Below are positions 28,298-57,406 of a stretch of DNA of 64,000 bases, in pieces (the first letter of the stretch is position 1; every line of letters begins with the position of its first letter). A model generated the notes under the pieces. That model saw only the letters and a list, made by a program, of their open reading frames with translations. It did no database searches and had not been told where the DNA came from. The DNA is from Candidatus Electrothrix rattekaaiensis (lineage in GTDB: Bacteria > Desulfobacterota > Desulfobulbia > Desulfobulbales > Desulfobulbaceae). Where the stretch lies: positions 930,001 to 994,000 of the forward strand of contig JAVQMD010000002.1 in the NCBI GenBank assembly GCA_032595675.1, written 5' to 3'. A program made the position numbers and the translations under genes.

Positions 28298-29044
28298 TTA
28301 GGGCAAGGTATTGTCTTGGTTTTCTTCAAAGAGCAGCACTCCAAGGGCAACACCACTGATCACAGAATAGGTCGGCCCGATAAACCAGCCAATAATCGGG
28401 ATCATGGTGAGGAGCAGACCGGCAGCACCGAAAAAGAACATCTCTGTTTTTTTGCTCCACAGTAGGGTAACGGTTTGCTTGGGGGTCATGCCGCGACGAT
28501 CCAGGTAGGGATCGACAAAAGCGGCACTGCTCAGAAACATCTGGAAGAAAAAGACCACAGCACCGGAAAGAAGCGCACCTATAACCGGGAGAGCAGACAG
28601 CGCGAACCCGGCAATAACGACCAGCACGGACGCCAGCACTGTGACCAGCAGGATCAGGGACAGCCGCATTAACGAGGCCGGGATGCTTTGTCCGGCAGGA
28701 GCAGGTTTGCCGGTAAGAATGCATTCCGCCTCTTCGGCGAGGAGGTCGAGAAAAGGGGTGAACATCAGCAGCACAAGACTGCGGAAGATGATGTACAGCG
28801 GCCCCGCCGCTACCACGCTTAGGGCTATCCAGACTGCAAAGCCGATCCATTCGGTCCAGGTTTGGTTTGGGAAGAGCAGGTGCTGGAGATAATCGGACAG
28901 TTCCCAGCCCAGCGCAAAAAAGCCTGCTATGGAAAGCGGAACCAGCAGAACGGATAGGGCGATGGGCAGACGGAGCCGTCTCCATTGTCCGTGCTTCCAG
29001 AGGACTTCGTGGCCGACTTTAAAGGCTTTTATGGTGTTTTTCAT
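28298..29044 (-). CDS. EI24/CysZ-like membrane protein
   Basis: 248 residues with four or more long hydrophobic segments and the family features: FKVGHEVLWKHGQWRRLRLP at the start, TPFLDLLAEEAE in the middle and SSAAFVDPYLDRRGMT before a late membrane helix. EI24-domain proteins include CysZ, a sulfate permease of cysteine synthesis; whether this one transports sulfate is not shown. It reads toward the glycosyltransferase genes (convergent). Confidence 0.78.
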   Translation of the reverse strand: MKNTIKAFKVGHEVLWKHGQWRRLRLPIALSVLLVPLSIAGFFALGWELSDYLQHLLFPNQTWTEWIGFAVWIALSVVAAGPLYIIFRSLVLLMFTPFLDLLAEEAECILTGKPAPAGQSIPASLMRLSLILLVTVLASVLVVIAGFALSALPVIGALLSGAVVFFFQMFLSSAAFVDPYLDRRGMTPKQTVTLLWSKKTEMFFFGAAGLLLTMIPIIGWFIGPTYSVISGVALGVLLFEENQDNTLP

Positions 29045-29067
29045 GGTGGATCATGTCCTTCGGTAGC

Positions 29068-29298
29068 CTATCGCTCTTCGTCCCGTGCCGCCAAGACAGC
29101 GGCACTCAGTCCTTGTCCCGGAACTGTAATTGTCCGACGGAATTCTTTCAAGCTCGGCAGACGGCGTTTTTCTCGGGGAGGTACCAGACAGGCCACTTCC
29201 TTCCCCCGTCTGGTCAGGAGAACATGCTGGCCGTGTTCAACCTGCTTGAGCAGTTTTCTCAGTTTTGCGGGAGCTTCTTTTACAGTTACTTCAAGCAT
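29068..29298 (-). CDS. Orphan Phd/YefM-family antitoxin
   Basis: 76 residues with the Phd fold: MLEVTVKEAPAKLRKLLKQV, then GQHVLLTRRGKEVACLVPP, the beta-hairpin that usually ends in an Ala/Pro-rich turn. The C-terminal tail is basic. No PIN or Doc/RelE toxin lies next to it; the gene downstream is the EI24-like protein. It may be a leftover of a lost module or act on a toxin elsewhere. Confidence 0.75.
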   Translation of the reverse strand: MLEVTVKEAPAKLRKLLKQVEHGQHVLLTRRGKEVACLVPPREKRRLPSLKEFRRTITVPGQGLSAAVLAARDEER

Positions 29299-29470
29299 GA
29301 TTTATCTCTCATTTTTTGTATGTTTTTGATGCGTACATTCTACCATCATTCTATTGTCGAATCCATATTTCTGTCAAATGGAGAAATATTTTATGCACCT
29401 AAAGTCGATTGCAAATATGGAGGGGCGGTTCGTGAACCGTCCGTACTTATTTCAGCTTGATGAAAAGTCA

Positions 29471-32400
29471 TCACCAACGATCATGAGCGGACACAATGCT
29501 GTCAACACCGTAGATGTTATGCGAGAGCATCCTGTCTATCACATCAAGTAGCCTCTTTCGTACTTCAGCGTTTTTTTCAGAGGAAGCATACTCCCGTTTC
29601 AGCAGGTCGTTCAGGTAATGAACATCTCTCTCTATCCTTCTGTCGTAATCGCCTTCCTCCTCAATAACCGTGATGAGTCGTTCCGCTGCTCCAATGACCA
29701 GATCAAGCACATCACAGGAGGCATCTTGCAACATATGCAGAAAGCTGAAACTACGCTCTGAAATGGCTGGAGATTGCACAAACTGTTCAGCCAACTCCCG
29801 GCATCGTTCAATTTCTTCGCCCCGGATTTTTCTAAAAACATGAGTGGCTTGCTCGCGAACCTGTTTGTCCTCATCAAAGAAAAATTCCTTGAGTAATTGC
29901 TCCGCCCGCCTTCGGTTCTCCGTCCACGTTAGCACATCAGCGACAACGTCAGCAAGCAGGCGGCGATGATTGACACTGCGGGTGGCAAGCTGTTCCGCCT
30001 GTTCAATATACTCGTCATTTCTGAAACTTTGTCCGAAAATAAGCCATGCGCCGATCAGTTCTTTTGTTTCATCTTCGCTTTTCAGCAATGCTGCTGTAAG
30101 TTCTTTGGCTACGTCCGGCAGCCAGTGGAACATATACGGGAAGAGATTGATTCCGGTATGGGAGATCAGCGGGGAAAGGCGCATATGGTCTGCATTGCAT
30201 GAAGTCGTAACTGGCAGAACTATCAGCTTTTTAATTGCGACGGTAAACCTGTCTTTATTTATGTTGTATAACTGACCAAGAACTCTGATTATAGTGCAAC
30301 GGACACTGACTAACGGTTCTTTCTCAAAAGCTTCTTCCAGAGCTTCCCATATTCGATCTTCTGTTTGAGGGAACTCATGGAGAACTACGCTTAAAGCTTC
30401 CCAAGCCGCTCCGCGCTCTCCGGTAAGATCGCATTGATAAGAAAGAGATCGTTTTCCTATAATGTGTTCTATGCTGTATGTTTCGTTTTTTATCCTTTCT
30501 TCTTCAGCAGTATTGTCTTTAATGACAGTTCCATTCAGAGCATACCAAATCAAAATATCCAGTATTTCCGAGTTGGCAGCAAGAGCAGGATGCTTTTTGA
30601 TCAACGTGGCTATGCTGCTGCCGAAATATCTAAGATGATGATAATGAACAAAAATTATGACTTGAACTATCAGATCATCAGGCAGTTCTTCGGCTTTGGC
30701 AAGACCAAGAATAACGTACTCTATATAAAGGCTATTTGCTTCTTTTGGGATATGAAAACATAGTCTTGCAAACCTGACAGGGTTTTTACTTGCCTCCGCC
30801 TCCAAATTTCTTGCTAATTCATGTATTCGGTACTCTTCTATTTTGTTGTTACTTATGCAGTATTTTTTAATTGCCGACAACCAATGGCTGTCTTTCATGC
30901 GGGCGCATTGATCCGTAGAAATAGGGGCTTTTATCTTCTGCATCTTAAAATTGTTCGGCTCTTCAATTTTCTCATTGCGAAATTTTCGTTGGAGCTGCTC
31001 AAGCAAAGCTGTGGTCTCCAGACTTAGCAGAGATTCTTCTATGTTTTCAAAAATGCACCATTGTTCATACCTTGACCGAGACAAATCATACTTGATTTCA
31101 GGGAAATAATTGGAAATATCTTTTTCAATCTGCAATCGTTCTTTTGACTCCAGAAAAGGAAAGGCTGCCTTGCAGGCATGGGCAAAGGAAAGCCAGTCTG
31201 CGCCATCATAGCCAGCGTTAAAAACCAGCCTATTTCGGGCAAGACTGGGCAGACGGTTACCAAGTTCTTTCGGGTTAGCCTGGATTGCTTCCAGATGCAG
31301 GTGCATCAAGCACTCATGTTTGTACGGATCAAGTTGCTGAAGATATTTTTCCGCCTCAACCGGTTGCTGCTGCGCAACTTTTTTGAGAGCCTTTCGGTAA
31401 ATACTGAGAAATCCATCAGATTTATAATGATGTTCTGATGTTGTCCTGTGTTTAAAATCCCACCATCCTCTACTATTTCTCCCTTCCGTAACCACAATAT
31501 TAACACAGTGGACAAGGAATTCTGTTGCCACTGCGAGAAATTCTACAGGTGCTTTTTCAACAAACTCTGCAAGCGCATGACTGTCGTGACCTTCGATAAT
31601 CTTAAACTCTTTATCACCGAAAGGCAGCTTGCCCGGATAGGCAGCAAACCACGCATTGAAGACAACCTGAAGAATCCTCCCACCTAATTCAGGAAGCTCG
31701 TTTGCCCAATCGTTCAGAATCGAAAAGAGGAAATGATCATCCTGCTGTTGAAAGAGAACTGCCGGATGCGAACGGATAATTTCTTCGCAGAGATCAAGCA
31801 AAGGACCGCAGAATTCAGCAGGCTTTCTCCAATGGGCAAAGCGAAACCAACCCAGAAGTCGTTCAGCTCGTTGCGGATTATCACCCCACCATGAACGCAG
31901 GATTGCTGCAATTTCAGCCGGTCGTTTCTCGGCAATGAACGACAGCCAGGAAAAGATGCTCTCCACCCGCTCCTGATTGTCATGCGCAAGCTGTTGCTCA
32001 ATCCATTTTTTCCTGTTGAGTAGATCAACCCGAGCAGCATGAATGGAGAAAACAGCGTGACGGAACAGGAGAGGAAACGCTCCGTCCTGATCATCAAGGC
32101 GGGAAATAATCTGCCATTCCTCTTCCGTCGGCTCATCAATAGAACCCAACCATTGACAGATGGCCGCTTTCATATGAAAACGGATGCGCTCACTGTGCAG
32201 GAGCGAGGCAAGCTCTTCTACGTACCGCTGATCATCATTTCTCCGCAATGCTTCCAAAATCTGGCGCACTTGTGTTCGGCGGAAAAGATGCTGCTCCGTT
32301 GTGGTCAACCATTCGACCATGCTTTGCTCATTTTTTAAAAATGACCGGGCATAGATGTGGTCAAAGAAACTCTCATGAAAGAAGTTGACCTGACCACGGG

Positions 32401-33982
32401 AAGAAACAATCAGACCTTCATGGGAGAGAATATCCGCCGCACCGGGAAAATCGTCGAGCACAACAACAGACGCACTCAACTTCTGCCGCTTACTCATCCA
32501 TTCACAGATGCTGCTCAATGGCTGCACCAAAGACCATTGCAAACCCTTGGGCAGTTGGCGTTGTTTTTTCTTAATCAGCTCTTCGTGCAGATTTGCGCAG
32601 GAATGAAAGGCAAGCTCCGGTTCATCAATCTCCAGGAAAACGGCAAGATTGACCGGCAGGCAAAGCAGGTCACGTTGCGGCTGGCTGAAACGCGAGGTGT
32701 CAATCTTCTTATTCCGCAGTAGCGGTTCAACCTCGCTTTTCCAATCAAGCAGAGGAACTTCTATCTTTTTGGTTAGTTCCTTTTGTTGCAGCTCTTTGAT
32801 TCGTGCATCGCTGTCAAAATCAAAGGTTCTGCACGCAGCAATAATTTTGATGCCGCCAAAAATATCGGCATCGCGTATCAGGCGAAAGAGAACCTCTTTC
32901 ACCTGCCCGTCACGACCGGAAACATCGCTGACTGCATCCACCTGATCTATGATCAGCACCGAAGTTTCCTCTGGAAAAGTTCCCTTTAAGGTGCTGACCG
33001 GACTTTCTTTCCGGCCTGTCAGCCGTTCGCCCAGCTCTTCTCTGGTGGCGCAATCCAAATGCTGATCAACCCTGAAGGCAAGATACGGAACTTCGGCTTC
33101 GCGCAGGTGCTGAATCACGCTGCGGATGACCCCGGATTTGCCTGAACCGGCAACGCCGGTCAACAGGATCAGTTCCGGGCTGTCGGATTTGCGCAGCTCA
33201 TCAAGAATCTGGTCGGCCTGAGTCCGTGGGATTGTCTCACCGTCCATGCCGAAAGGCGTGTAGGTTCCGAGATATGCTTCTGTCTCTTCCTGTAAACGCT
33301 GCGGAATGGACGGATCAAAGGCCCATTCTTTAAACTGAAGAATGCCCTGCTCTTTGACAGCCTTGCGTAGCCCTTCCGTGGTCAGCTTCTTGTTGAAATG
33401 TCTTTCAAGAAGATCACGCAAATTCGGAAATGCACTCTTGCCGCCTTGGTGAAAATACAGGTCGCCATAGGATTCGGTGAAGGAATCCAGCTCTCTTTCG
33501 GGAATCATTTCAACTTGGCTTCGCTTGAGCCAGTCAAAAGACAGCTCATCAGACGAATTCCATTCTGCCTGTAGTTGCCGAAACAGCTCCTTCTTTTTTT
33601 TAAGGATATCCTGGTATTCCTCACAAGAGTTGGCAAGTTGCGCCTTTTCCGTCAGCGTTCTGAAGTCCTTGGCATTATCCTGCGAGACAAAAAAACAGCG
33701 GGCATGTTCATCCGCTGCTAAACGATCCGCAAAGGCTTTAAGAATACCTTCCTTTTTCAGAGCATTGATTGTCCAGTTGCCTTGCGGGGAGTTAATCTTG
33801 GTCTGATGCCATTCAGTGATTTCTTTCCTGCCAATTGCGAATTCAAAACCTCGGAACGCGGATTCAACCCCTTCAAAGTGCAGCCAGTCTGCTTTGCCGG
33901 CAAGCACTTCCATAGCAATCCGAACCAGCCATTTGGCTTCGTAGCGGTCACCCAGTTTGCCTCCAATGCCTCCTCGTATCAT
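29471..33982 (-). CDS. Large STAND NTPase with N-terminal nuclease-like domain
   Basis: 1,503 residues in three parts. Residues 1-200 start GGIGGKLGDRYEAKWLV and hold GFEFAIGRKEITEWHQTK, where E then x-x-Q-x-K resembles the Cap4/Mrr-type PD-(D/E)xK nucleases of Avs proteins. The NTPase has a Walker A (LLTGVAGSGKSGVIR, about 271) and Walker B (SVLIIDQVD, about 341) plus ACRTFDFD. From about 560 to the end stretches a long helical-repeat region, the usual sensor of STAND proteins. The protein probably oligomerises on sensing a phage component and turns on the nuclease. It starts four bases behind the lepA stop. Sequence-level assignment only. Confidence 0.78.
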   Translation of the reverse strand: MIRGGIGGKLGDRYEAKWLVRIAMEVLAGKADWLHFEGVESAFRGFEFAIGRKEITEWHQTKINSPQGNWTINALKKEGILKAFADRLAADEHARCFFVSQDNAKDFRTLTEKAQLANSCEEYQDILKKKKELFRQLQAEWNSSDELSFDWLKRSQVEMIPERELDSFTESYGDLYFHQGGKSAFPNLRDLLERHFNKKLTTEGLRKAVKEQGILQFKEWAFDPSIPQRLQEETEAYLGTYTPFGMDGETIPRTQADQILDELRKSDSPELILLTGVAGSGKSGVIRSVIQHLREAEVPYLAFRVDQHLDCATREELGERLTGRKESPVSTLKGTFPEETSVLIIDQVDAVSDVSGRDGQVKEVLFRLIRDADIFGGIKIIAACRTFDFDSDARIKELQQKELTKKIEVPLLDWKSEVEPLLRNKKIDTSRFSQPQRDLLCLPVNLAVFLEIDEPELAFHSCANLHEELIKKKQRQLPKGLQWSLVQPLSSICEWMSKRQKLSASVVVLDDFPGAADILSHEGLIVSSRGQVNFFHESFFDHIYARSFLKNEQSMVEWLTTTEQHLFRRTQVRQILEALRRNDDQRYVEELASLLHSERIRFHMKAAICQWLGSIDEPTEEEWQIISRLDDQDGAFPLLFRHAVFSIHAARVDLLNRKKWIEQQLAHDNQERVESIFSWLSFIAEKRPAEIAAILRSWWGDNPQRAERLLGWFRFAHWRKPAEFCGPLLDLCEEIIRSHPAVLFQQQDDHFLFSILNDWANELPELGGRILQVVFNAWFAAYPGKLPFGDKEFKIIEGHDSHALAEFVEKAPVEFLAVATEFLVHCVNIVVTEGRNSRGWWDFKHRTTSEHHYKSDGFLSIYRKALKKVAQQQPVEAEKYLQQLDPYKHECLMHLHLEAIQANPKELGNRLPSLARNRLVFNAGYDGADWLSFAHACKAAFPFLESKERLQIEKDISNYFPEIKYDLSRSRYEQWCIFENIEESLLSLETTALLEQLQRKFRNEKIEEPNNFKMQKIKAPISTDQCARMKDSHWLSAIKKYCISNNKIEEYRIHELARNLEAEASKNPVRFARLCFHIPKEANSLYIEYVILGLAKAEELPDDLIVQVIIFVHYHHLRYFGSSIATLIKKHPALAANSEILDILIWYALNGTVIKDNTAEEERIKNETYSIEHIIGKRSLSYQCDLTGERGAAWEALSVVLHEFPQTEDRIWEALEEAFEKEPLVSVRCTIIRVLGQLYNINKDRFTVAIKKLIVLPVTTSCNADHMRLSPLISHTGINLFPYMFHWLPDVAKELTAALLKSEDETKELIGAWLIFGQSFRNDEYIEQAEQLATRSVNHRRLLADVVADVLTWTENRRRAEQLLKEFFFDEDKQVREQATHVFRKIRGEEIERCRELAEQFVQSPAISERSFSFLHMLQDASCDVLDLVIGAAERLITVIEEEGDYDRRIERDVHYLNDLLKREYASSEKNAEVRKRLLDVIDRMLSHNIYGVDSIVSAHDRW

Positions 33983-33986
33983 CCAG

Positions 33987-35780
33987 TCACTGCTCCGACT
34001 TCAAAACCGACAAAAACGCAGACTGAGGAATATCCACATTACCCACCGTCTTCATCCGCTTCTTGCCCGCCTTCTGTTTCTCCAGCAGCTTCCGCTTACG
34101 AGAAATATCACCACCGTAGCATTTCGCAGTCACATCCTTACGCAAAGCCGCAACATTGGTTCGGGCAACGACGGTGCCACCTATGGCCGCTTGGATAGCG
34201 ATCTTGAACATCTGGCGCGGAATCTCTTCTTTCAGACTTTCACAGGCCTTGAGGCCACGTTCACGGGAACGATCCCGATGGGTGAGCTGGGACAGGGCAT
34301 CCACCCGCTCGCCGTTGACCAGGATATCCAGCTTGACCAGATCACTGGGTCGGTAGTCAATCATTTCGTAGTCAAAGGAGCCGTAGCCCTGGGTCACGGA
34401 TTTCAGCTTATCGTAAAAATCATAGATCACCTCGGCCAGGGGCAGTTCGCAGGTGAATTCGATCCGGCCCGGCATGGGGTAGTGGTAGTTGGTGTTCTCG
34501 CCCCGCCGCTCCATGCAGAGATTCATGACCACGCCCATGTAGCGTTCCGGGATCAGGATGGTCGCCTTGATAAAGGGTTCTTCAATCCTGGCGATAGCAC
34601 CGGGATCAGGAAAATGGGAAGGGTTGTCCACTGTCAATTCTGTACCGTCCTGGAGTTCCATTTGATAGCGGACCGAGGGCACGGTGAGGATCAGGGAGAT
34701 ATCGAACTCCCGTTCCAGTCGCTCCTGGACCACTTCCAGATGGAGCAGGCCGAGAAAGCCGCAACGGAACCCAAAACCTAGGGCCGCAGAGGTATCTTTC
34801 TGAAAAGTCAGGGCTGCATCGTTGAGCTTGAGCTTTTCTAGGGCCGCACCTAGATCCTCGTACTCATCCGTGGAAATTGGGTAGACCGAGGAAAAGACCA
34901 CCTGCTGCACTTCCTGAAAACCGGGCAGCGGGGCAGGGCAGGGTCTGTCCTTATGGGTGATGGTGTCGCCGGGCTTGGTGTCGGAAACCGTTTTTACGCC
35001 AGCAATAATATAGCCGACCTGACCTGCGCTCAGGCTCTTGCGCGGGGTGCGCCGGAGGAGAAACTGGCCCAGCTCTTCCACCCTGTGCTCGGTCTTGTTA
35101 TGCATAAAATAGATCTGGTCGCCGGTACGGAGGGTACCGTTGATGATGCGCACCGAAATGACCGTGCCCCGGTAGGGGTCATAGTTGGCATCAAAGATCA
35201 TGCATTCAAGAGGTTTGTCAGGGTCGCCTTCAGGCGGCGGCAGATGGGTGACAATGGCCTCCAGGATATCTTTCACGCCTACGCCAGTTTTGGCCGAGCA
35301 TTTTTGGATAATCTCACCATCCAGGCCCAAATCCTCCTCAATTTCATCAGCCACCTTTTCCGGTTCCGCAGCTGGCAGGTCAATCTTGTTGATCACCGGG
35401 ATGATTTCCAGATCATTCTCCATAGCCAGATAAAGATTGGCCAGGGTCTGGGCCTCAATGCCCTGGGCCGCATCAACGAGCAAGAGGGCACCCTCGCAGG
35501 CAGCCAAGGCCCTGGAAACCTCGTAGCTGAAATCCACATGGCCCGGAGTGTCGACCAGATTCAGGGCATATTCCTGCCCGTCCGCTGCGGTGTAAGGAAG
35601 GCAGATAGTTTGACTCTTGATGGTGATACCCCGCTCCCGTTCGATGTCCATACTATCGAGAAGCTGGTCTTTGAATTCTCGATCCGTGACCAGTCCGCAA
35701 AGCTGGATCATCCGGTCGGACAGGGTGGACTTGCCGTGGTCAATATGGGCGATTACACTGAAGTTACGTATGTTTTTCAT
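33987..35780 (-). CDS. lepA: Elongation factor 4 (LepA)
   Basis: 597 residues, standard length. G1 is AHIDHGKST, G3 is DTPGH, G4 is NKID. The EF-G-like domains follow, and the LepA-specific C-terminus ends in KRMKTVGNVDIPQSAF. LepA is a ribosome-binding GTPase that affects initiation and elongation under stress. The STAND gene begins four bases after its stop codon, so lepA readthrough or coupling would deliver transcription to that gene. Confidence 0.97.
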   Translation of the reverse strand: MKNIRNFSVIAHIDHGKSTLSDRMIQLCGLVTDREFKDQLLDSMDIERERGITIKSQTICLPYTAADGQEYALNLVDTPGHVDFSYEVSRALAACEGALLLVDAAQGIEAQTLANLYLAMENDLEIIPVINKIDLPAAEPEKVADEIEEDLGLDGEIIQKCSAKTGVGVKDILEAIVTHLPPPEGDPDKPLECMIFDANYDPYRGTVISVRIINGTLRTGDQIYFMHNKTEHRVEELGQFLLRRTPRKSLSAGQVGYIIAGVKTVSDTKPGDTITHKDRPCPAPLPGFQEVQQVVFSSVYPISTDEYEDLGAALEKLKLNDAALTFQKDTSAALGFGFRCGFLGLLHLEVVQERLEREFDISLILTVPSVRYQMELQDGTELTVDNPSHFPDPGAIARIEEPFIKATILIPERYMGVVMNLCMERRGENTNYHYPMPGRIEFTCELPLAEVIYDFYDKLKSVTQGYGSFDYEMIDYRPSDLVKLDILVNGERVDALSQLTHRDRSRERGLKACESLKEEIPRQMFKIAIQAAIGGTVVARTNVAALRKDVTAKCYGGDISRKRKLLEKQKAGKKRMKTVGNVDIPQSAFLSVLKSEQ

Positions 35781-49786: not shown

Positions 49787-52700
49787 ATGCCCCCAGCAAT
49801 AGACGAATTTGAAGACCTCACACAATTTGCAGATGAGTCGTTTGATAATGATGAAGTTGATTTGTTTGAATTTACTGATGATGAGGAGTCGCCCCTTCTT
49901 CGTCTGAAGTCGATAGTTCTTTCTCTGGATTGGGATATCACCGAGGATACTCTGGCTGAGCTGACCGAAGAGTTATCTGATCTACGTTCTCTCTGGGATG
50001 GAGATAAGGTGGCGCAGATTTATCTTCAAGGAATGGATAATATCGGCAAGTATCTTCAGAAAGAGGGAGCATATGCCCACCCTAATGCCATTAAGCTTCT
50101 GTTAACACTCTTTTATAATTATGAAAAAATAATATCCTCGACAGATCTCAGCAGTGATACCGTAGCTGCCATGCTCAAGGCTGATGTCCGTAAATTTAAA
50201 GTGCTTCAGTACCAAATTGGCACGATAGGTGCCGAGGGGCATGCAGAGGCGCATGTCGAGGCGCATGTCGAGGCTGTAGCACCGCCTGAAGAAATAATTC
50301 AAGAAGACCTCCTTGCAAGCACATCCGTGCTGCGTGAGGAGAAAGACGATCCGTTGACCAGCATGGAAGCCACCATTCTTGGTTTGGAATGGGATGTTAC
50401 CCAGGAGGGGCTGGAGAAATTTCATTCTGAAGCCACGGAGTTGCGAGAGCATTTAACTGGTAATCGTGATGCACAAATTCTTGTGCAGGGATTGCAGGCA
50501 TTAGGATCATATATACGAGAGGAAAAATCAAACGCCCATCCAGACGCGTTTACCATCCTCCATGCGTTTTATGATGCTTTAAAGCTTTTGATTCAAGATA
50601 CGAATTTGACTGCTGAGCAACGGAAGCGGGTCTTGATGGAGCAGATCGGCAGTCTTAACAGCCTGAAAGCAATTATCGCCCAGTCGGCTGTTGAGCGAGC
50701 GGCAGAAAAAAGTTCTGGAGAGCAAGAAAAGACGGAAGCAGCTGAAACCCCTGATGTACCAGTACCGGAGCAAAAATCTGAAGAAGATGAAGAAGATCCC
50801 GAGTTGAGTACTGTCTCTGAGGACGATGCTGAGTTTGGTTCTCCTGTAGCAGATGATGACGAAGACCTGGATTTGTTTTCGGAGGATTTTAATGAGAGCT
50901 CTGACTTTTCAGCAGGCGGAGACGGGGAGGATGAATTTTTTCTTGATGGGGACGATAGCCTATCGGATGACGGCCTAGTAGATGAGGAAAGTATCGCTGG
51001 AGATTTTGACTTTGACGAGGAAGAGAGCGGGCTTGATTTTGAAGTAGAAGGGGGACTTGATGATGACCTGTTTGCCGATGAGGTGGAGGAAGGAGAACAG
51101 GAATTGAGCTTGGGTGATGACGCTTCTGGAGAAGAATCAATTCTTCCAGCTTTGACCGATGCTGATGAGGATGGCGGTTTTAATGAGGAACTTATAGCTG
51201 ACGGAATCGACGAAGAAAAAACTGCAGAACTTGATGAAAAACTGGACTCCTTTTTTGATTTTGACAGTGATGAATTCCAGGATGAACCTATAGAGCAACA
51301 GGAAGAAAAAAACGTTGTCGATGATGAGAGCAGCATAACCAAGGAAGAGCCAACTGCTGTCGAGGAAGAGGGCAAGAGTGAGCCGGGTGAATCAGACGAG
51401 GAACTTGATTCTTTTTTTGATTTTTCCGATGAAGTGGCTGATGATCAGGCCCCGAAAGAAGAAGAAAAGGCGCGTGTTGAGTCGTGGAAAAATGAGATCT
51501 TGAACTCAGATTTTGATGGGCCAGACGGAGAAGAGGAAGGCCTTTTGGAGGGTGAGGAGGATTACGATTCCTTTTTTGATTTTGACAGCGACGAAGATGA
51601 GGACGAAATCCTCCTGGATGAGCAGGCAGCCGTGACGGATAATGATGATACGTTAGCGGCAGGTGATGATGACATTGATATCTCTTTGGACGGTTTGGAC
51701 GACGAGCAGGAGAGTGAAGAACTAACTGTTGCCCTTGCAGATGCTGATGAAGAGGGGGGATTCAACGAAGATGAGATGTCGTCCGGTATTGCTGATGAAA
51801 AGGCGGCTGAGCTTGATGAAAAGCTGAATTTCTTTTTTGAGCTGGATAAGGAAGAGCAGGAAGAGTCGTCTGAAAACCAAATTTCTGGAGCAGAGGAAGA
51901 TGCTCCTGTCGTCACTGAAGCTCAAGCCGAACCGGATTCATTCGATGAGGAGCAGGGTGAATTCAGCTTAGGATTGGATGGCGACAGCTCAGAATTGTTG
52001 TTTGATGACGAAGACGATTTTGATGGAGATATTGCAGGATTTTCTGATACAGCCGATACAGAAGTTGTTAGCGCGACAGCTGGTCAAGACGAGAAATTTG
52101 CTTCGGATTCAGAAGAAGAACTAGACGATTTTGATGGAGATATTGCAGGATTTTCTGATACAGCCGATACAGAAGTTGTTAGCGTGACCGCTGGTCAAGA
52201 CGAGAAATTTGCTTCGGATTCAGAAGAAGAAATTGAGGGATTGGATGCCATCTTCGATTTAGACGATGACGCAGATGGGGGGCCTGAATTTGATAAATCA
52301 AGCGTAGGGGGACCAGAAGAGATACCTGCTTTAGATGACGAATTTGTTGTATCGCTTGATGATGAAGAGGAAAGCGCGGATGAACTCTTTGATTTTTCCT
52401 CTGATAGCGAGGAAGAAGAACAAGATGATATCTCTCTGGATTTAGGCGATGATGTTGAATCTGAGGAGAGCTTCTTTGGCTTGGAAGATGTTGACAAAGA
52501 GGTTGCGTCGGTAGGCGCAGGCTCCTCTTCAGCTGGAGCAGATGATGTTGGGCTTGAAGATGAGTTTACGTTATCGCTTGAAGACGACGACACAAGCGAC
52601 GACGATTTTGCTGATTTTTCTTTTGATAGTGAGGAGGAAGGCGAAAGCGATATCTCTTCAAAGCCAGTTAAGGAAGTGGAAGAAGAACTTGATGAGGAAT

Positions 52701-55700
52701 TCGCTTTATCTTTTGACGATGAAGGATCCGGTGAGGAAACAGAGGATTTTGACAGTTTCTTAGATCTAGAGGAAGACCTTGGCGAATCTCTAGAGTCAGA
52801 AGACCCCAAAGACCCATCTTCATTTGAAGAGCCAGTGGAAGAGATTGAGCTTGAAGATGAGTTTGTGTTGTCACTTGATGATGAATCGAGCGATAACGAT
52901 GAGTTATCTGAATTTTCTTTTGACAGCGATGATGCCGATGAAGGCGCAGTTGTCTCAGAATCCGTTTCAGCGTTAGAATCTGAGGATAGTTTCTTCGGTT
53001 TGGATGAGGAAACAGAGGCCGAAGCTGAGGCGGAGACCGCCGCAGTAGTTGAAGAGGAGGATTCAGAAGACGAGTTTGCCCTATCGTTTGATGATGAAGA
53101 GTCAGGCGAAGATGAGTTTGCGTTGTCACTTGATGAAGAACCGAGCGATCAGGATGAGTTGTCCGAATTTTCTTTTGACAGCGATGATGCCGATGAAGGC
53201 GCAGTTGTCTCAGAATCCGTTTCAGCGTTAGAATCTGAAGATAGTTTCTTCGGTTTGGATGAGGAAACAGAGGCCGAAGCTGAGGCGGAGACCGCCGCAG
53301 TAGTTGAAGAGGAAGATTCAGAAGACGAGTTCGCCCTATCGCTTGATGATGAAGAGTCGGATGAAGACTCAGACGAAGATGAGTTTGCGTTGTCACTTGA
53401 TGATGAACCGAGCGATAAGGATGAGTTGTCTGAATTTTCTTTTGACAGCGATGATGCCGATGAAAGTGCAGTTGTTTCAGAATCCGTTTCAGAGTTAGAA
53501 GAATCTGAGGATAGTTTCTTCGGTTTGGATGAGGAAACAGAGGCCGAAGCTGAGGCGGAGACCGCCGCAGTAGTTGAAGAGGTGGACTCAGAAGACGAGT
53601 TCGCCCTATCGCTTGATGATGAAGAGTCGGACGAAGATGAGTTTGCGTTGTCACTTGATGATGAACCGAGCGATAAGGATGAGTTGTCTGAATTTTCTTT
53701 TGACAGCGATGATGCCGATGAAGGCACAGTTGCCTCAGAATCCGTTTCAGCGTTAGAATCTGAAGATAGTTTCTTCGGTTTGGATGAAGAAGCCGGAGAA
53801 GAGGTTGAGGCGGAGACCGCCGCAGTAGTTGAAGAGGAGGATTCGGAAGACGAGTTCGCCCTATCGTTTGATGATGAAGAGTCAGACGAAGATGAGTTTG
53901 CGTTGTCACTTGATGAGGGGTCGAGCGATCAGGATGAGTTATCCGAATTTTCTTTTGACAACGATGAAGCCGATGAAGGTGCAGTTGTCTCAGAATCCGT
54001 TTCAAAGTTAGAAGAATCTGAGGATAGTTTCTTCGGTCTGGATGAGGAAGTTGAGGACGAGGTTGAGGCCGCAGAAGGAGCCGAAGCGAGTGACTCAGAA
54101 GACGAGTTTGCCCTATCGCTTGATGATGAAGAGTTGGATGAAGAGTCAGACGAAGATGAGTTTGCGTTGTCACTTGATGAAGAATCGAGCGATAATGATG
54201 AGTTTTCCGAATTTTCTTTTGACAACGATGAAGCCGATGAAGGTGCAGTTGTCTCAGAATCCGTTTCAGCGTTAGAATCTGAAGATAGTTTCTTCGGTTT
54301 GGATGAGGAAACAGAGGCCGAAGCTGAGGCGGAGACCGCCGCAGTAGTTGAAGAGGAGGATTCAGAAGACGAGTTCGCCCTATCGCTTGATGATGAAGAG
54401 TCGGATGAAGAGTCAGAAGAAGATGAGTTTGCGTTGTCACTTGATGAAGAACCAAGCGATAAGGATGAGTTATCCGAATTTTCTTTTGACAGCGATGAAG
54501 CCGATGAAAGTGCAGTTGTCTCAGAATCCGTTTCAGCGTTAGAATCTGAGGATAGTTTCTTCGGTCTGGATGAGGAAACAGAGGCCGAAGCTGAGGCGGA
54601 GACCGCCGCAGTAGTTGAAGAGGAGGATTCGGAAGACGAGTTTGCCCTATCGCTTGATGATGAATCGAGCGATAAGGATGAGTTATCCGAATTTTCTTTT
54701 GACAGCGATGATGCCGATGAAGGCGCAGTTGCCTCAGAATCCGTTTCAGCGTTAGAATCTGAGGATAGTTTCTTCGGTTTGGATGAGGAAACAGAGGCCG
54801 CAGAAGGATCTGAAGCGAGTGACTCAGAAGACGAGTTCGCCCTCTCGCTTGATGATGAAGAGTCAGACGAAGACGAGTTTGCGTTGTCACTTGATGAAGA
54901 ATCGAGCGATAATGATGAGTTTTCCAAATTTTCTTTTGACAACGATGAAGCCGATGAAGGTGCAGTTGTCTCAGAATCCGTTTCAAAGTTAGAAGAATCT
55001 GAGGATAGTTTCTTCGGTTTGGATGAGGAAACAGAGGACGAAGCTGAGGCGGAGACCGCCGCAGTAGTTGAAGAGGAGGATTCAGAAGACGAGTTCGCGT
55101 TGTCACTTGATGAAGAATCGAGCGATAATGATGAGTTTTCCGAATTTTCTTTTGACAACGATGAAGCCGATGAAGGTGCAGTTGTCTCAGAACCTGTTTC
55201 AGAGTTAGAAGAATCTGAAGATAGTTTCTTCGGTTTGGATGAGGAAACAGAGGCCGAAGCTGAGGCGGAGACCGCCGCAGTAGTTGAAGAGGAGGATTCA
55301 GAAGACGAGTTCGCCCTATCGTTTGATGATGAAGAGTCAGACGAAGATGAATTTGCGTTGTCACTTGATGAGGAATCGAGCGATAAGGATGAGTTGTCCG
55401 AATTTTCTTTTGACAGCGATGATGCCGATGAAGGCGCAGTTGTCTCAGAATCCGTTTCAGAGTTAGAAGAATCTGAGGATAGTTTCTTCGGTCTGGATGA
55501 GGAAGTTGAGGACGAGGTTGAGGCCGCAGAAGGAGCCGAAGCGAGTGACTCAGAAGACGAGTTTGCCCTATCGCTTGATGATGAAGAGTCGGATGAAGAG
55601 TCAGACGAAGATGAGTTTGCGTTGTCACTTGATGATGAACCGAGCGATAAGGATGAGTTTTCCGAATTTTCTTTTGACAGCGATGATGCCGATGAAGGCG

Positions 55701-57406
55701 CAGTTGTCTCAGAATCCGTTTCAGCGTTAGAATCTGAAGATAGTTTTTTCGGTTTGGATGAGGAAACAGAGGCCGAAGCTGAGGCGGAGACCGCCGCAGT
55801 AGTTGAAGAGGAGGATTCAGAAGACGAGTTTGCCTTATCGCTTGATGATGAAGAGTCGGATGAAGAGTCGGACGAAGATGAGTTTGCGTTGTCACTTGAT
55901 GATGAACCGAGCGATCAGGATGAGTTATCCGAATTTTCTTTTGACAGCGATGAAGCCGATGAAAGTGCAGTTGTTTCAGAATCCGTTTCAGAGTTAGAAG
56001 AATCTGAGGATAGTTTCTTCGGTTTGGATGAGGAAACAGAGGCCGAAGCTGAGGCGGAGACCGCCGCAGTAGTTGAAGAGGAGGATTCGGAAGATGAGTT
56101 TGCGTTGTCACTTGATGAAGAATCGAGCGATAAGGATGAGTTATCCGAATTTTCTTTTGACAGCGATGATGCCGATGAAGGCGCAGTTGTCTCAGAATCC
56201 GTTTCAGCGTTAGAATCTGAGGATAGTTTCTTCGGTTTGGATGAGGAAACAGAGGTCGAAGCTGAGGCGGAGACCGCCGCAGTAGTTGAAGAGGAGGATT
56301 CAGAAGACGAGTTTGCCCTATCGCTTGATGATGAAGAGTCAGACGAAGATGAATTTGCGTTGTCACTTGATGATGAACCAAGCGATAATGATGAGTTGTC
56401 TGAATTTTCTTTTGACAGCGATGATACCGATGAAGGCGCAGTTGCCTCAGAACCTGTTTCAGCGTTAGAATCTGAAGATAGTTTCTTCGGTTTGGATGAG
56501 GAAACAGAGGCCGAAGCTGAGGCGGAGACCGCCGCAGTAGTTGAAGAGGAGGATTTGGAAGATGAGTTTGCGTTATCACTTGATGAAGAATCGAGCGATA
56601 AGGATGAGTTGTCCGAATTTTCTTTTGACAGTGATGAAGCCGATGCAGCTTTAGATCGTGCCGCTGCATTCACCTCGGAAGCAGCCGTTTCTGCTGAAAC
56701 TGCTTCGGACGAGGAAAACGAGTTCTTGCTCGATCAGAAACTTGAGCAGGCGTATGATGTTGAAGAGCAAAGAGAAAGCAGGTTTTTGTCGGCTGAAGAT
56801 GCTGTTAAAGGAGATTCCGAGAAGATTATAGACACGGAATCCGCTTCTTTCTTGGAAAGCGAGGAAGAAGGAAAGCAGCTCGGGGATGATAAAGACACAG
56901 AAGATGTTACACCTTTTTTCGATGTTGCGCCTTTTGTTGCCGCCGCTGCTGCGGTTTCTTCTACACTGTCTGTTGATAATGTACGATCTGTCAATGAACT
57001 GGCAGGAGCTGCTAAGAGGCGCGGAGGAACCCAGCAGCAAATAGTGATTCTCCATCTCTTGGAATCCGCAACCGCTCTTATCGGGCAAAAGTCTGAGCCG
57101 GATAACGATGATCAGGTTGTGGTCCAAGAGCTGGTGGCCGGGCTTGAACTCGCAGCTGAGGATCCCTTTGAGCTCACGGCCTTGGTCCATCATTACACAG
57201 CTTGGCAGCAGGAGTTTTTTCGCTCACTACTGGCCCGTAAAGAAGAGCAGCCGGTTCAGCCAGCAGCAGCTCCTTCACCACCTATTCTTTCGGATAGTAT
57301 CAGCAATATGGACGCAGTCCATCAGGTCCAGGAGGGTTTCTCACAGTTGCGGGAGGCCATGATGGAGGAATTCAACCACCTGAGAAAAGAACTGAAAAAA
57401 GGATAA
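49787..57406 (+). CDS. Giant acidic repeat protein, candidate MglA partner or scaffold
   Basis: 2,539 residues. Two related helical domains lie near the N-terminus (about 40-145 and 195-300), each opening with a short Leu-Asp/Glu-Trp-Asp motif (SLDWDIT and GLEWDVT) and sharing AxxHPxAxxxL. An acidic, degenerate repeat zone (about 330-1020) has recurring LDEKLDSFFDFD phrases. The array of 15 near-identical units (about 1020-2285) carries EDEFALSLDDE, ELSEFSFDSD and SEDSFFGLDEE blocks. The C-terminus is a helical domain ending in QVQEGFSQLREAMMEEF. No signal peptide or membrane segment is seen, so it should be cytoplasmic. Asp, Glu and Ser dominate, so the middle must be disordered and highly negative. 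I know no described protein of this make-up. It sits in the mglBA unit. Confidence 0.85.
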   Translation: MPPAIDEFEDLTQFADESFDNDEVDLFEFTDDEESPLLRLKSIVLSLDWDITEDTLAELTEELSDLRSLWDGDKVAQIYLQGMDNIGKYLQKEGAYAHPNAIKLLLTLFYNYEKIISSTDLSSDTVAAMLKADVRKFKVLQYQIGTIGAEGHAEAHVEAHVEAVAPPEEIIQEDLLASTSVLREEKDDPLTSMEATILGLEWDVTQEGLEKFHSEATELREHLTGNRDAQILVQGLQALGSYIREEKSNAHPDAFTILHAFYDALKLLIQDTNLTAEQRKRVLMEQIGSLNSLKAIIAQSAVERAAEKSSGEQEKTEAAETPDVPVPEQKSEEDEEDPELSTVSEDDAEFGSPVADDDEDLDLFSEDFNESSDFSAGGDGEDEFFLDGDDSLSDDGLVDEESIAGDFDFDEEESGLDFEVEGGLDDDLFADEVEEGEQELSLGDDASGEESILPALTDADEDGGFNEELIADGIDEEKTAELDEKLDSFFDFDSDEFQDEPIEQQEEKNVVDDESSITKEEPTAVEEEGKSEPGESDEELDSFFDFSDEVADDQAPKEEEKARVESWKNEILNSDFDGPDGEEEGLLEGEEDYDSFFDFDSDEDEDEILLDEQAAVTDNDDTLAAGDDDIDISLDGLDDEQESEELTVALADADEEGGFNEDEMSSGIADEKAAELDEKLNFFFELDKEEQEESSENQISGAEEDAPVVTEAQAEPDSFDEEQGEFSLGLDGDSSELLFDDEDDFDGDIAGFSDTADTEVVSATAGQDEKFASDSEEELDDFDGDIAGFSDTADTEVVSVTAGQDEKFASDSEEEIEGLDAIFDLDDDADGGPEFDKSSVGGPEEIPALDDEFVVSLDDEEESADELFDFSSDSEEEEQDDISLDLGDDVESEESFFGLEDVDKEVASVGAGSSSAGADDVGLEDEFTLSLEDDDTSDDDFADFSFDSEEEGESDISSKPVKEVEEELDEEFALSFDDEGSGEETEDFDSFLDLEEDLGESLESEDPKDPSSFEEPVEEIELEDEFVLSLDDESSDNDELSEFSFDSDDADEGAVVSESVSALESEDSFFGLDEETEAEAEAETAAVVEEEDSEDEFALSFDDEESGEDEFALSLDEEPSDQDELSEFSFDSDDADEGAVVSESVSALESEDSFFGLDEETEAEAEAETAAVVEEEDSEDEFALSLDDEESDEDSDEDEFALSLDDEPSDKDELSEFSFDSDDADESAVVSESVSELEESEDSFFGLDEETEAEAEAETAAVVEEVDSEDEFALSLDDEESDEDEFALSLDDEPSDKDELSEFSFDSDDADEGTVASESVSALESEDSFFGLDEEAGEEVEAETAAVVEEEDSEDEFALSFDDEESDEDEFALSLDEGSSDQDELSEFSFDNDEADEGAVVSESVSKLEESEDSFFGLDEEVEDEVEAAEGAEASDSEDEFALSLDDEELDEESDEDEFALSLDEESSDNDEFSEFSFDNDEADEGAVVSESVSALESEDSFFGLDEETEAEAEAETAAVVEEEDSEDEFALSLDDEESDEESEEDEFALSLDEEPSDKDELSEFSFDSDEADESAVVSESVSALESEDSFFGLDEETEAEAEAETAAVVEEEDSEDEFALSLDDESSDKDELSEFSFDSDDADEGAVASESVSALESEDSFFGLDEETEAAEGSEASDSEDEFALSLDDEESDEDEFALSLDEESSDNDEFSKFSFDNDEADEGAVVSESVSKLEESEDSFFGLDEETEDEAEAETAAVVEEEDSEDEFALSLDEESSDNDEFSEFSFDNDEADEGAVVSEPVSELEESEDSFFGLDEETEAEAEAETAAVVEEEDSEDEFALSFDDEESDEDEFALSLDEESSDKDELSEFSFDSDDADEGAVVSESVSELEESEDSFFGLDEEVEDEVEAAEGAEASDSEDEFALSLDDEESDEESDEDEFALSLDDEPSDKDEFSEFSFDSDDADEGAVVSESVSALESEDSFFGLDEETEAEAEAETAAVVEEEDSEDEFALSLDDEESDEESDEDEFALSLDDEPSDQDELSEFSFDSDEADESAVVSESVSELEESEDSFFGLDEETEAEAEAETAAVVEEEDSEDEFALSLDEESSDKDELSEFSFDSDDADEGAVVSESVSALESEDSFFGLDEETEVEAEAETAAVVEEEDSEDEFALSLDDEESDEDEFALSLDDEPSDNDELSEFSFDSDDTDEGAVASEPVSALESEDSFFGLDEETEAEAEAETAAVVEEEDLEDEFALSLDEESSDKDELSEFSFDSDEADAALDRAAAFTSEAAVSAETASDEENEFLLDQKLEQAYDVEEQRESRFLSAEDAVKGDSEKIIDTESASFLESEEEGKQLGDDKDTEDVTPFFDVAPFVAAAAAVSSTLSVDNVRSVNELAGAAKRRGGTQQQIVILHLLESATALIGQKSEPDNDDQVVVQELVAGLELAAEDPFELTALVHHYTAWQQEFFRSLLARKEEQPVQPAAAPSPPILSDSISNMDAVHQVQEGFSQLREAMMEEFNHLRKELKKG
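52850..56640 (+). repeat. 15-copy in-frame DNA repeat inside the giant gene
   Basis: The marker GATAGTTTCTTCGG occurs at 52985, 53240, 53510, 53765, 54023, 54284, 54551, 54764, 55004, 55220, 55478, 55739 (one T for C), 56009, 56222 and 56477. Spacings are 213-270 bp and all are multiples of three. Units differ mainly by gain or loss of a second EDEFALSL block and by small insertions. DNA identity between units is very high, including at third codon positions. Confidence 0.95.

Follow-up and report, generated by a model that had tools for sequence, protein, structure and literature searches.

The window analyzed here, a 64,000-nucleotide stretch of the genome of Candidatus Electrothrix rattekaaiensis (contig JAVQMD010000002.1, positions 930,001 to 994,000), contains directly behind lepA a gene for a 1503-residue protein that is likely to act as a single-gene antiphage receptor of the antiviral STAND type. 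Three parts are joined in one chain: an N-terminal domain with a nuclease-like fold, a central NACHT-type STAND NTPase and a long helical C-terminal part. As far as the structural models show, this is the layout of antiviral STAND proteins, with an N-terminal effector, a central STAND NTPase and a large C-terminal sensor. The gene and its building blocks are the following, with the counts of conserved residues taken from the 12 rows of alignment A1:

29471-33982, minus strand: whole gene of the nuclease-STAND-HEAT protein including its stop codon, a single intact open reading frame (ORF) with an ATG start, 1503 codons and 1503 amino acids
33323-33952, minus strand: PD-(D/E)xK-like nuclease domain, residues 11-220 (AlphaFold model, fold match to 8zue_A, LmuA hits in distant relatives)
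33842-33844, minus strand: acidic partner E47 (E or D at this position in 12 of 12 aligned proteins)
33797-33805, minus strand: predicted catalytic motif Q60-x-K62 (Q and K in 12 of 12)
32063-33316, minus strand: NACHT-type STAND NTPase with winged helix, residues 223-640 (NLRP9 fold, AAA/STAND Pfam models, PDC-M54A)
33134-33160, minus strand: Walker A, TGVAGSGKS, residues 275-283 (K282 in 12 of 12)
32936-32962, minus strand: Walker B, residues 341-349 (D346 and D349, both in 12 of 12)
32375-32377, minus strand: H536 of the FFHESFFDHIYA stretch, predicted winged-helix histidine (12 of 12)
29474-32185, minus strand: predicted HEAT-repeat solenoid sensor, residues 600-1503 (AlphaFold, predicted local distance difference test (pLDDT) 73.9, predicted template modelling score (pTM) 0.46)

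Residues 1-640 were modelled by AlphaFold from an 11-row alignment (mean pLDDT 81.7). A helix (14-27), three strands (33-37, 46-52 and 55-62), a second helix (80-90) and a fourth strand (94-100) follow each other in this model, giving the alpha-beta-beta-beta-alpha-beta core with the acidic residue on strand 2 and QxK on strand 3. An earlier note on this DNA, written from the letters alone, had made its interpretation dependent on a PD-(D/E)xK fold at this end, and the domain indeed models as such. Its best solved match is 8zue_A (VIA-align: Z 14.5, root-mean-square deviation (rmsd) 3.6, 189 residues; model 11-220 against 14-246 of the 531-residue chain), an entry titled 'Hachiman defense system from Escherichia coli'. 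By its length and matched N-terminal half we infer that this chain would fit an AbpA-type effector, in which a HamA-like domain comes after a Cap4-like N-terminal one (PMC12278908). The LmuA model recognizes the N-termini of the distant relatives L027 (5.8e-10) and L024 (1.1e-6), while the window protein is not matched. The motif had been proposed as E-x-x-Q-x-K. It is present as E57-x-x-Q60-x-K62 with Q60 and K62 invariant, but E57 is E in only 7 of the 12 aligned proteins, and we therefore narrow the motif to Q-x-K with an upstream acidic residue. Position 47 holds E in six and D in six proteins, and position 15 holds E in nine and Q in three. Such a Q-x-K with an upstream acid, located on modelled strands 46-52 and 55-62, fits the PD-(D/E)xK layout, and the domain is best described as a predicted nuclease that may cut DNA.

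The STAND-like P-loop with Walker B seen in the earlier note stands: Walker A and Walker B both lie inside the stretch matched by AAA/STAND models. Pfam sees the NTPase alone (AAA_16 2.2e-6, nSTAND5 4.7e-6, AAA PF00004 above gathering score), the best named PADLOC model for the full protein is PDC-M54A (8.3e-15, residues 203-554), and NCBIfam offers nothing useful for the 1503-residue protein. In a Foldseek search of residues 1-640 against the PDB, Avs4 comes first (E 2.9e-13, 582 columns), followed by NLRP9, NOD2 and NLRP3. The NTPase aligns with NLRP9, NLRP3 and NOD2 at Z 21-24; for NLRP9 (7wbt_A) against model residues 223-640, VIA-align gives Z 23.6 and rmsd 4.0 over 381 residues. All 12 aligned proteins have the features of the NACHT class, namely K282, D346, D349, R385 after Walker B and H536 in the winged helix, together with Q60 and K62 of the nuclease domain. 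By analogy with NLR structures, we take H536 to be the winged-helix histidine that holds ADP. Weak matches to DUF3134, Viral_helicase1 and CPT in Pfam, and to T4 lysozyme in the PDB sequence search, were taken as chance. One further ORF of the same genome (G000) touches PDC-M54A weakly (7e-4).

The 900-residue helical sensor of the earlier note is likewise recovered, residues 600-1503 being almost wholly helical in the AlphaFold model. The Foldseek matches listed for it are mostly of the HEAT type (importins, CAND1, SF3B1, mTOR), and the VIA rows with the PP2A scaffold and importin-alpha reach Z 11-15, a level that helical repeats easily attain. The Pfam model HEAT_2 matches 5 of 11 aligned members, the window protein not being one of them. 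The sensor models as HEAT, at modest confidence (pLDDT and pTM as given above), whereas described sensors are, e.g., of the TPR type.

The gene is conserved by selection over its whole length. Compared to the 85% identical full-length copy in the same-genus genome G401, its closest relative, the rate of nonsynonymous substitution (dN) is 0.080 and that of synonymous substitution (dS) 0.430, and the ratio of 0.19 indicates purifying selection (nuclease 0.13, NTPase 0.15, three sensor parts 0.19-0.26). Since the gene is under purifying selection and has full-length homologues of 1504-1574 amino acids, the ORF is no chance reading frame. Divergence from the closest relatives is strongest in sensor residues 901-1200, which are 44% identical to L002 where the nuclease and NTPase reach 66-67%. 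This faster divergence would fit a sensor under shifting pressure, but also a less constrained scaffold.

As judged from genome comparison, the gene is accessory and mobile. Only two of eight genomes of the genus carry it (its own, G000, and G401; one of the eight is only 69% complete), and it occurs in 9 of 395 genomes of the phylum at any similarity and, by profile search, in 7 of 257 genomes of the class, its own genome included in both counts. In G401 the copy is located at 849879, behind an abrB-mazF pair and ahead of edd, whereas lepA lies at 1443859, 0.59 Mb apart. In genome G398 the corresponding site holds ~3.7 kb of other genes between flanks that are both 94-95% identical. Nucleotide homology between the G000 and G401 copies covers 29469-33983, the ORF alone. 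Between these two genomes dS is 0.43 for this gene compared to 0.95 for lepA, 1.00 for the cysZ-like gene and 1.11 for edd; being under half that of three host genes, it indicates that the gene probably reached at least one of the lineages after their split. Near the G401 site, genome G395 has a HigB-like/HTH pair (recognized by eye) beside edd (L068:2377-3013), and 130 bases located downstream of the G401 gene find a match at L068:2685-2814.

The immediate locus in the window consists of three further genes:

33987-35780, minus strand: lepA, the co-directional upstream neighbour, recovered over its full length from 8 of the 9 related genomes that were searched
29068-29298, minus strand: small orphan Phd/YefM-family antitoxin ORF (Pfam 1.1e-8) between the cysZ-like gene and the 1503-residue ORF
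28298-29044, minus strand: CysZ/EI24-family gene (Pfam EI24 1.2e-18), the other border of a variable slot

The gene had been said to be inserted behind lepA and to begin four bases after it. The lepA stop codon occupies 33987-33989 and the first base of the ATG is 33982, with a four-base gap in between, and a GGAG lies ~10 bases ahead of the ATG within the lepA 3' end. The insertion is supported by the sister genomes, in which other DNA follows the lepA stop: the sequence behind it differs in each of six genomes compared, and in the five sister genomes with both borders in one stretch (L041-L045) the lepA-cysZ interval holds 1.8-5.3 kb of other DNA with Roc-COR/LRR proteins, PD-(D/E)XK transposase-family genes and an FG-GAP protein. 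Genome G396 has a caspase-domain gene downstream of lepA. The interval from lepA to the cysZ-like gene (window 29044-33987) is thus a variable slot in the genus. The four-base gap and the co-directional upstream gene at both genus sites suggest that the gene is expressed from resident transcription, plausibly including a borrowed lepA promoter. A scan found 6 promoter-like sites versus 6.8 expected from shuffles, hence no excess, so that the borrowed promoter remains a suggestion; terminator-like sites numbered 12 versus 8.4 expected. For the Phd/YefM-family ORF, no toxin partner is seen alongside. Elsewhere in the window, a 2539-codon ORF (49787-57406) has a 1333-codon ORF antisense to it (52668-56669).

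Relatives of the protein are spread across phyla and plasmids. Beyond the G401 copy, full-length relatives occur in metagenome-assembled genomes of Aminicenantes (57% identity) and Deltaproteobacteria (56%), and on plasmids of Sinorhizobium numidicum and Rhizobium phaseoli (39%). Nine further plasmid records match at 22-26% identity, some of them annotated caspase or SEFIR. As a side observation, L021:3055-8226 (minus), L023:8301-12695 and the plasmid hits H7-H12 share the NTPase but have different N-termini, some being annotated caspase or SEFIR, which points to an exchange of effectors on a common NTPase-sensor chassis. A 50-residue piece (L010) from another genome of the phylum, 58% identical to the window protein and with a stop codon, is likely a remnant of a close relative. 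Located inside a type I restriction operon, the relative at L025:9851-13996 (minus) has its frame broken by an in-frame TGA, from decay or sequencing error. A viral origin was rejected: there are no matches in 50,697 phage records and none is confirmed in viral contigs. In the viral fold library the matches are largely generic AAA proteins; the top one is an NLR-like entry encoded by a phage (E 4e-9).

The genomic company of the relatives argues for a role in defence. Flanks were inspected for 13 relatives (L002, L003, L014, L015, L016, L020, L022, L024, L025, L026, L027, L051 and the split L050/L055, whose join is presumed from two contigs of one genome), leaving aside the NTPase-only L021, L023, L028 and L053 and the fragments L010 and L011. 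Six of the 13 are flanked by a strongly supported restriction, abortive-infection or nuclease-effector gene, a raw count without a background rate, from flanks of unequal length with PADLOC run on ORFs picked by eye. These neighbours are a type IIG restriction-modification gene (L020), Lit (L051), an HNH endonuclease (L003), type I specificity and restriction subunits with AbiEi (L022), type I methylase and specificity subunits (L025) and a type I methylase (L055). The flank of L014 holds an annotated multiubiquitin-ThiF-DUF6527 group with an integrase (ThiF 1.6e-7 to an E1-E2 model). Relatives that were never near defence genes would have spoken against the original proposal, and this is not what the flanks show.

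Several observations weigh against an antiphage STAND receptor with an active nuclease. In the flanks inspected, seven of the 13 relatives lack a strongly supported defence gene, and in the window itself the gene is surrounded by housekeeping genes and an orphan antitoxin instead of a defence island. The Pfam NACHT model stays below its gathering cut-off (0.001, 19.4 versus 26.7 bits). At the nuclease end, the window protein has E47 where D is more usual, and no Pfam nuclease family (e.g., DUF4297, Mrr) appears in 13 N-terminal domains at E<=1; the profile comparison with Mrr and DUF4297 suggested at the outset thus gave zero matches, and assignment to these families by Pfam was rejected. No Avs is found among the 7 PADLOC families at E<=1 with the full protein, and Avs4 superposes loosely on the model (Z 17.6, rmsd 17.2, 489 residues over both domains), so its domains are arranged differently.

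The mechanism is most likely that of the antiviral STAND proteins, by parallel with PMC10907252 for the group, PMC12931631 for Avs5 and PMC12169576 for bNACHT25. At rest, the NACHT module would hold ADP in a pocket shut by the winged-helix histidine. The C-terminal HEAT solenoid would be engaged by a phage product or by a change that infection brings about in the host, upon which ADP would be swapped for ATP and protomers would assemble. The clustered N-terminal PD-(D/E)xK domains could then turn active and cut DNA, and infection would be ended by loss of DNA or by cell death.

The same parts could serve another purpose. It is possible, though rather unlikely, that the protein is directed at plasmids or other incoming DNA instead of phages, or that it monitors a host process, as described for bNACHT25 and DnaJ, instead of binding a phage protein. 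The restriction systems adjoining several relatives act on any incoming DNA, some relatives are themselves carried on plasmids, and bNACHT25 is activated through host DnaJ (PMC12169576); then again, most antiviral STAND proteins described by experiment bind phage proteins (PMC10907252). We hold it quite improbable that the gene is a selfish or toxin-like mobile element expressed from resident operons, for which defence would be incidental or lacking. It moves without any flanking DNA, homology stopping at the ORF borders, it immediately follows a resident co-directional gene at both genus sites (lepA; abrB-mazF), and toxin-antitoxin genes are near both (Phd, MazF), yet a full NACHT switch and a long sensor, kept across phyla under purifying selection over the whole length, would be superfluous for a simple toxin. 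A host regulatory STAND ATPase of the MalT type with an inactive nuclease-like domain is hardly credible: the NTPase does resemble many STAND proteins, including the maltose-system structure 8bob_C (Z 15.9), but no DNA-binding output domain is seen, all 12 aligned proteins retain QxK and the acidic residue, and the gene is missing from six of eight genus genomes.

Within the preferred interpretation as an antiphage receptor, nuclease-STAND receptors are a known kind; what sets this lineage apart is that it has no PADLOC Avs match, that its nearest model is uncharacterized and that its sensor models as HEAT. We tentatively put forward, as a combined reading that is less likely than not, that it is an unnamed antiviral STAND lineage combining a compact nuclease, an NLR-like NACHT switch and a HEAT-type rather than TPR solenoid sensor, that it has passed between phyla and plasmids as a bare gene which lacks a promoter and is picked up immediately downstream of resident operons, and that its trigger is not among the phage proteins to which the known Avs types respond. 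If the protein works in the way proposed above as most likely, the set of bacterial NLR-like receptors would be widened by a branch whose sensor scaffold is different and whose switch aligns closely with animal NLRs (NLRP9, NLRP3, NOD2). The lepA slot also illustrates how such genes can come to lie outside a defence island.

Among known systems, the order of nuclease, STAND and long C-terminal sensor is that of Avs4 (8dgf), the top Foldseek hit for residues 1-640. The assignment in the earlier note to an Avs/Cap4 kind of nuclease-STAND therefore holds for the architecture, but not at the level of Avs models or Pfam nuclease families. The PADLOC Avs models, of which the names Avs2 and Avs4 alone were seen, do not place the protein in any of the sequence types Avs1-Avs5; residues 1-640 give Avs4 at an unconvincing 0.0041 only, and the PDB sequence search returned no Avs chain at E<=1. 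PDC-M54A, an uncharacterized PADLOC candidate, matches the NTPase at 203-554 and leaves the nuclease end and the sensor unmatched. A search for its partner PDC-M54B was silent in 6 genomes, but equally silent in controls, and a literature search found no paper naming PDC-M54.

Similar to the window protein, bNACHT25 and bNACHT32 (clade 6) join a PD-(D/E)XK DNase to a NACHT module and need D48, an acidic residue next in number to position 47 here (PMC12169576); they carry an NCH1 C-terminal domain instead of a 900-residue HEAT-like sensor, a comparison by description, not by sequence. The nucleases of Hachiman, Lamassu (LmuA) and CBASS (Cap4) have the fold class in common with the window nuclease, but are separate effector subunits or nucleotide-gated, whereas the window nuclease is fused to a STAND switch. 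Described antiviral STAND sensors are, e.g., of the TPR type (PMC10907252), unlike the HEAT model obtained here, and a literature search found no paper joining HEAT repeat with STAND, antiphage, NLR and bacterial.

The closest parallel in overall design is a solved 1523-residue 'AAA family ATPase' (PDB 9n00, 9n01 and 9yix), to which the family profile, one close relative of 9n00 included in it, aligns end to end (positions 1-1524). The N-terminal domain profile alone finds 9n00 at 1e-44, and the window protein (P0001) alone at 4e-16 over 270-633. The entry is very close to L024 (2194 bits over 1523 amino acids), for which a DNA search found no E. coli homologues. L024 in turn shares 12-23% identity with the window protein, depending on the domain, has D rather than E as acidic residue and an N-terminus recognized as LmuA-like, which that of the window protein is not. 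The entry is not among the Foldseek and VIA matches listed (fold library to April 2026), and a literature search by entry code and topic returned no publication or function for the three entries. Because a relative of the same design has a solved structure, this cousin has very likely been studied already, and such a solved distant relative, together with the clear catalytic residues, makes the trigger and the mechanism of the window protein directly testable.

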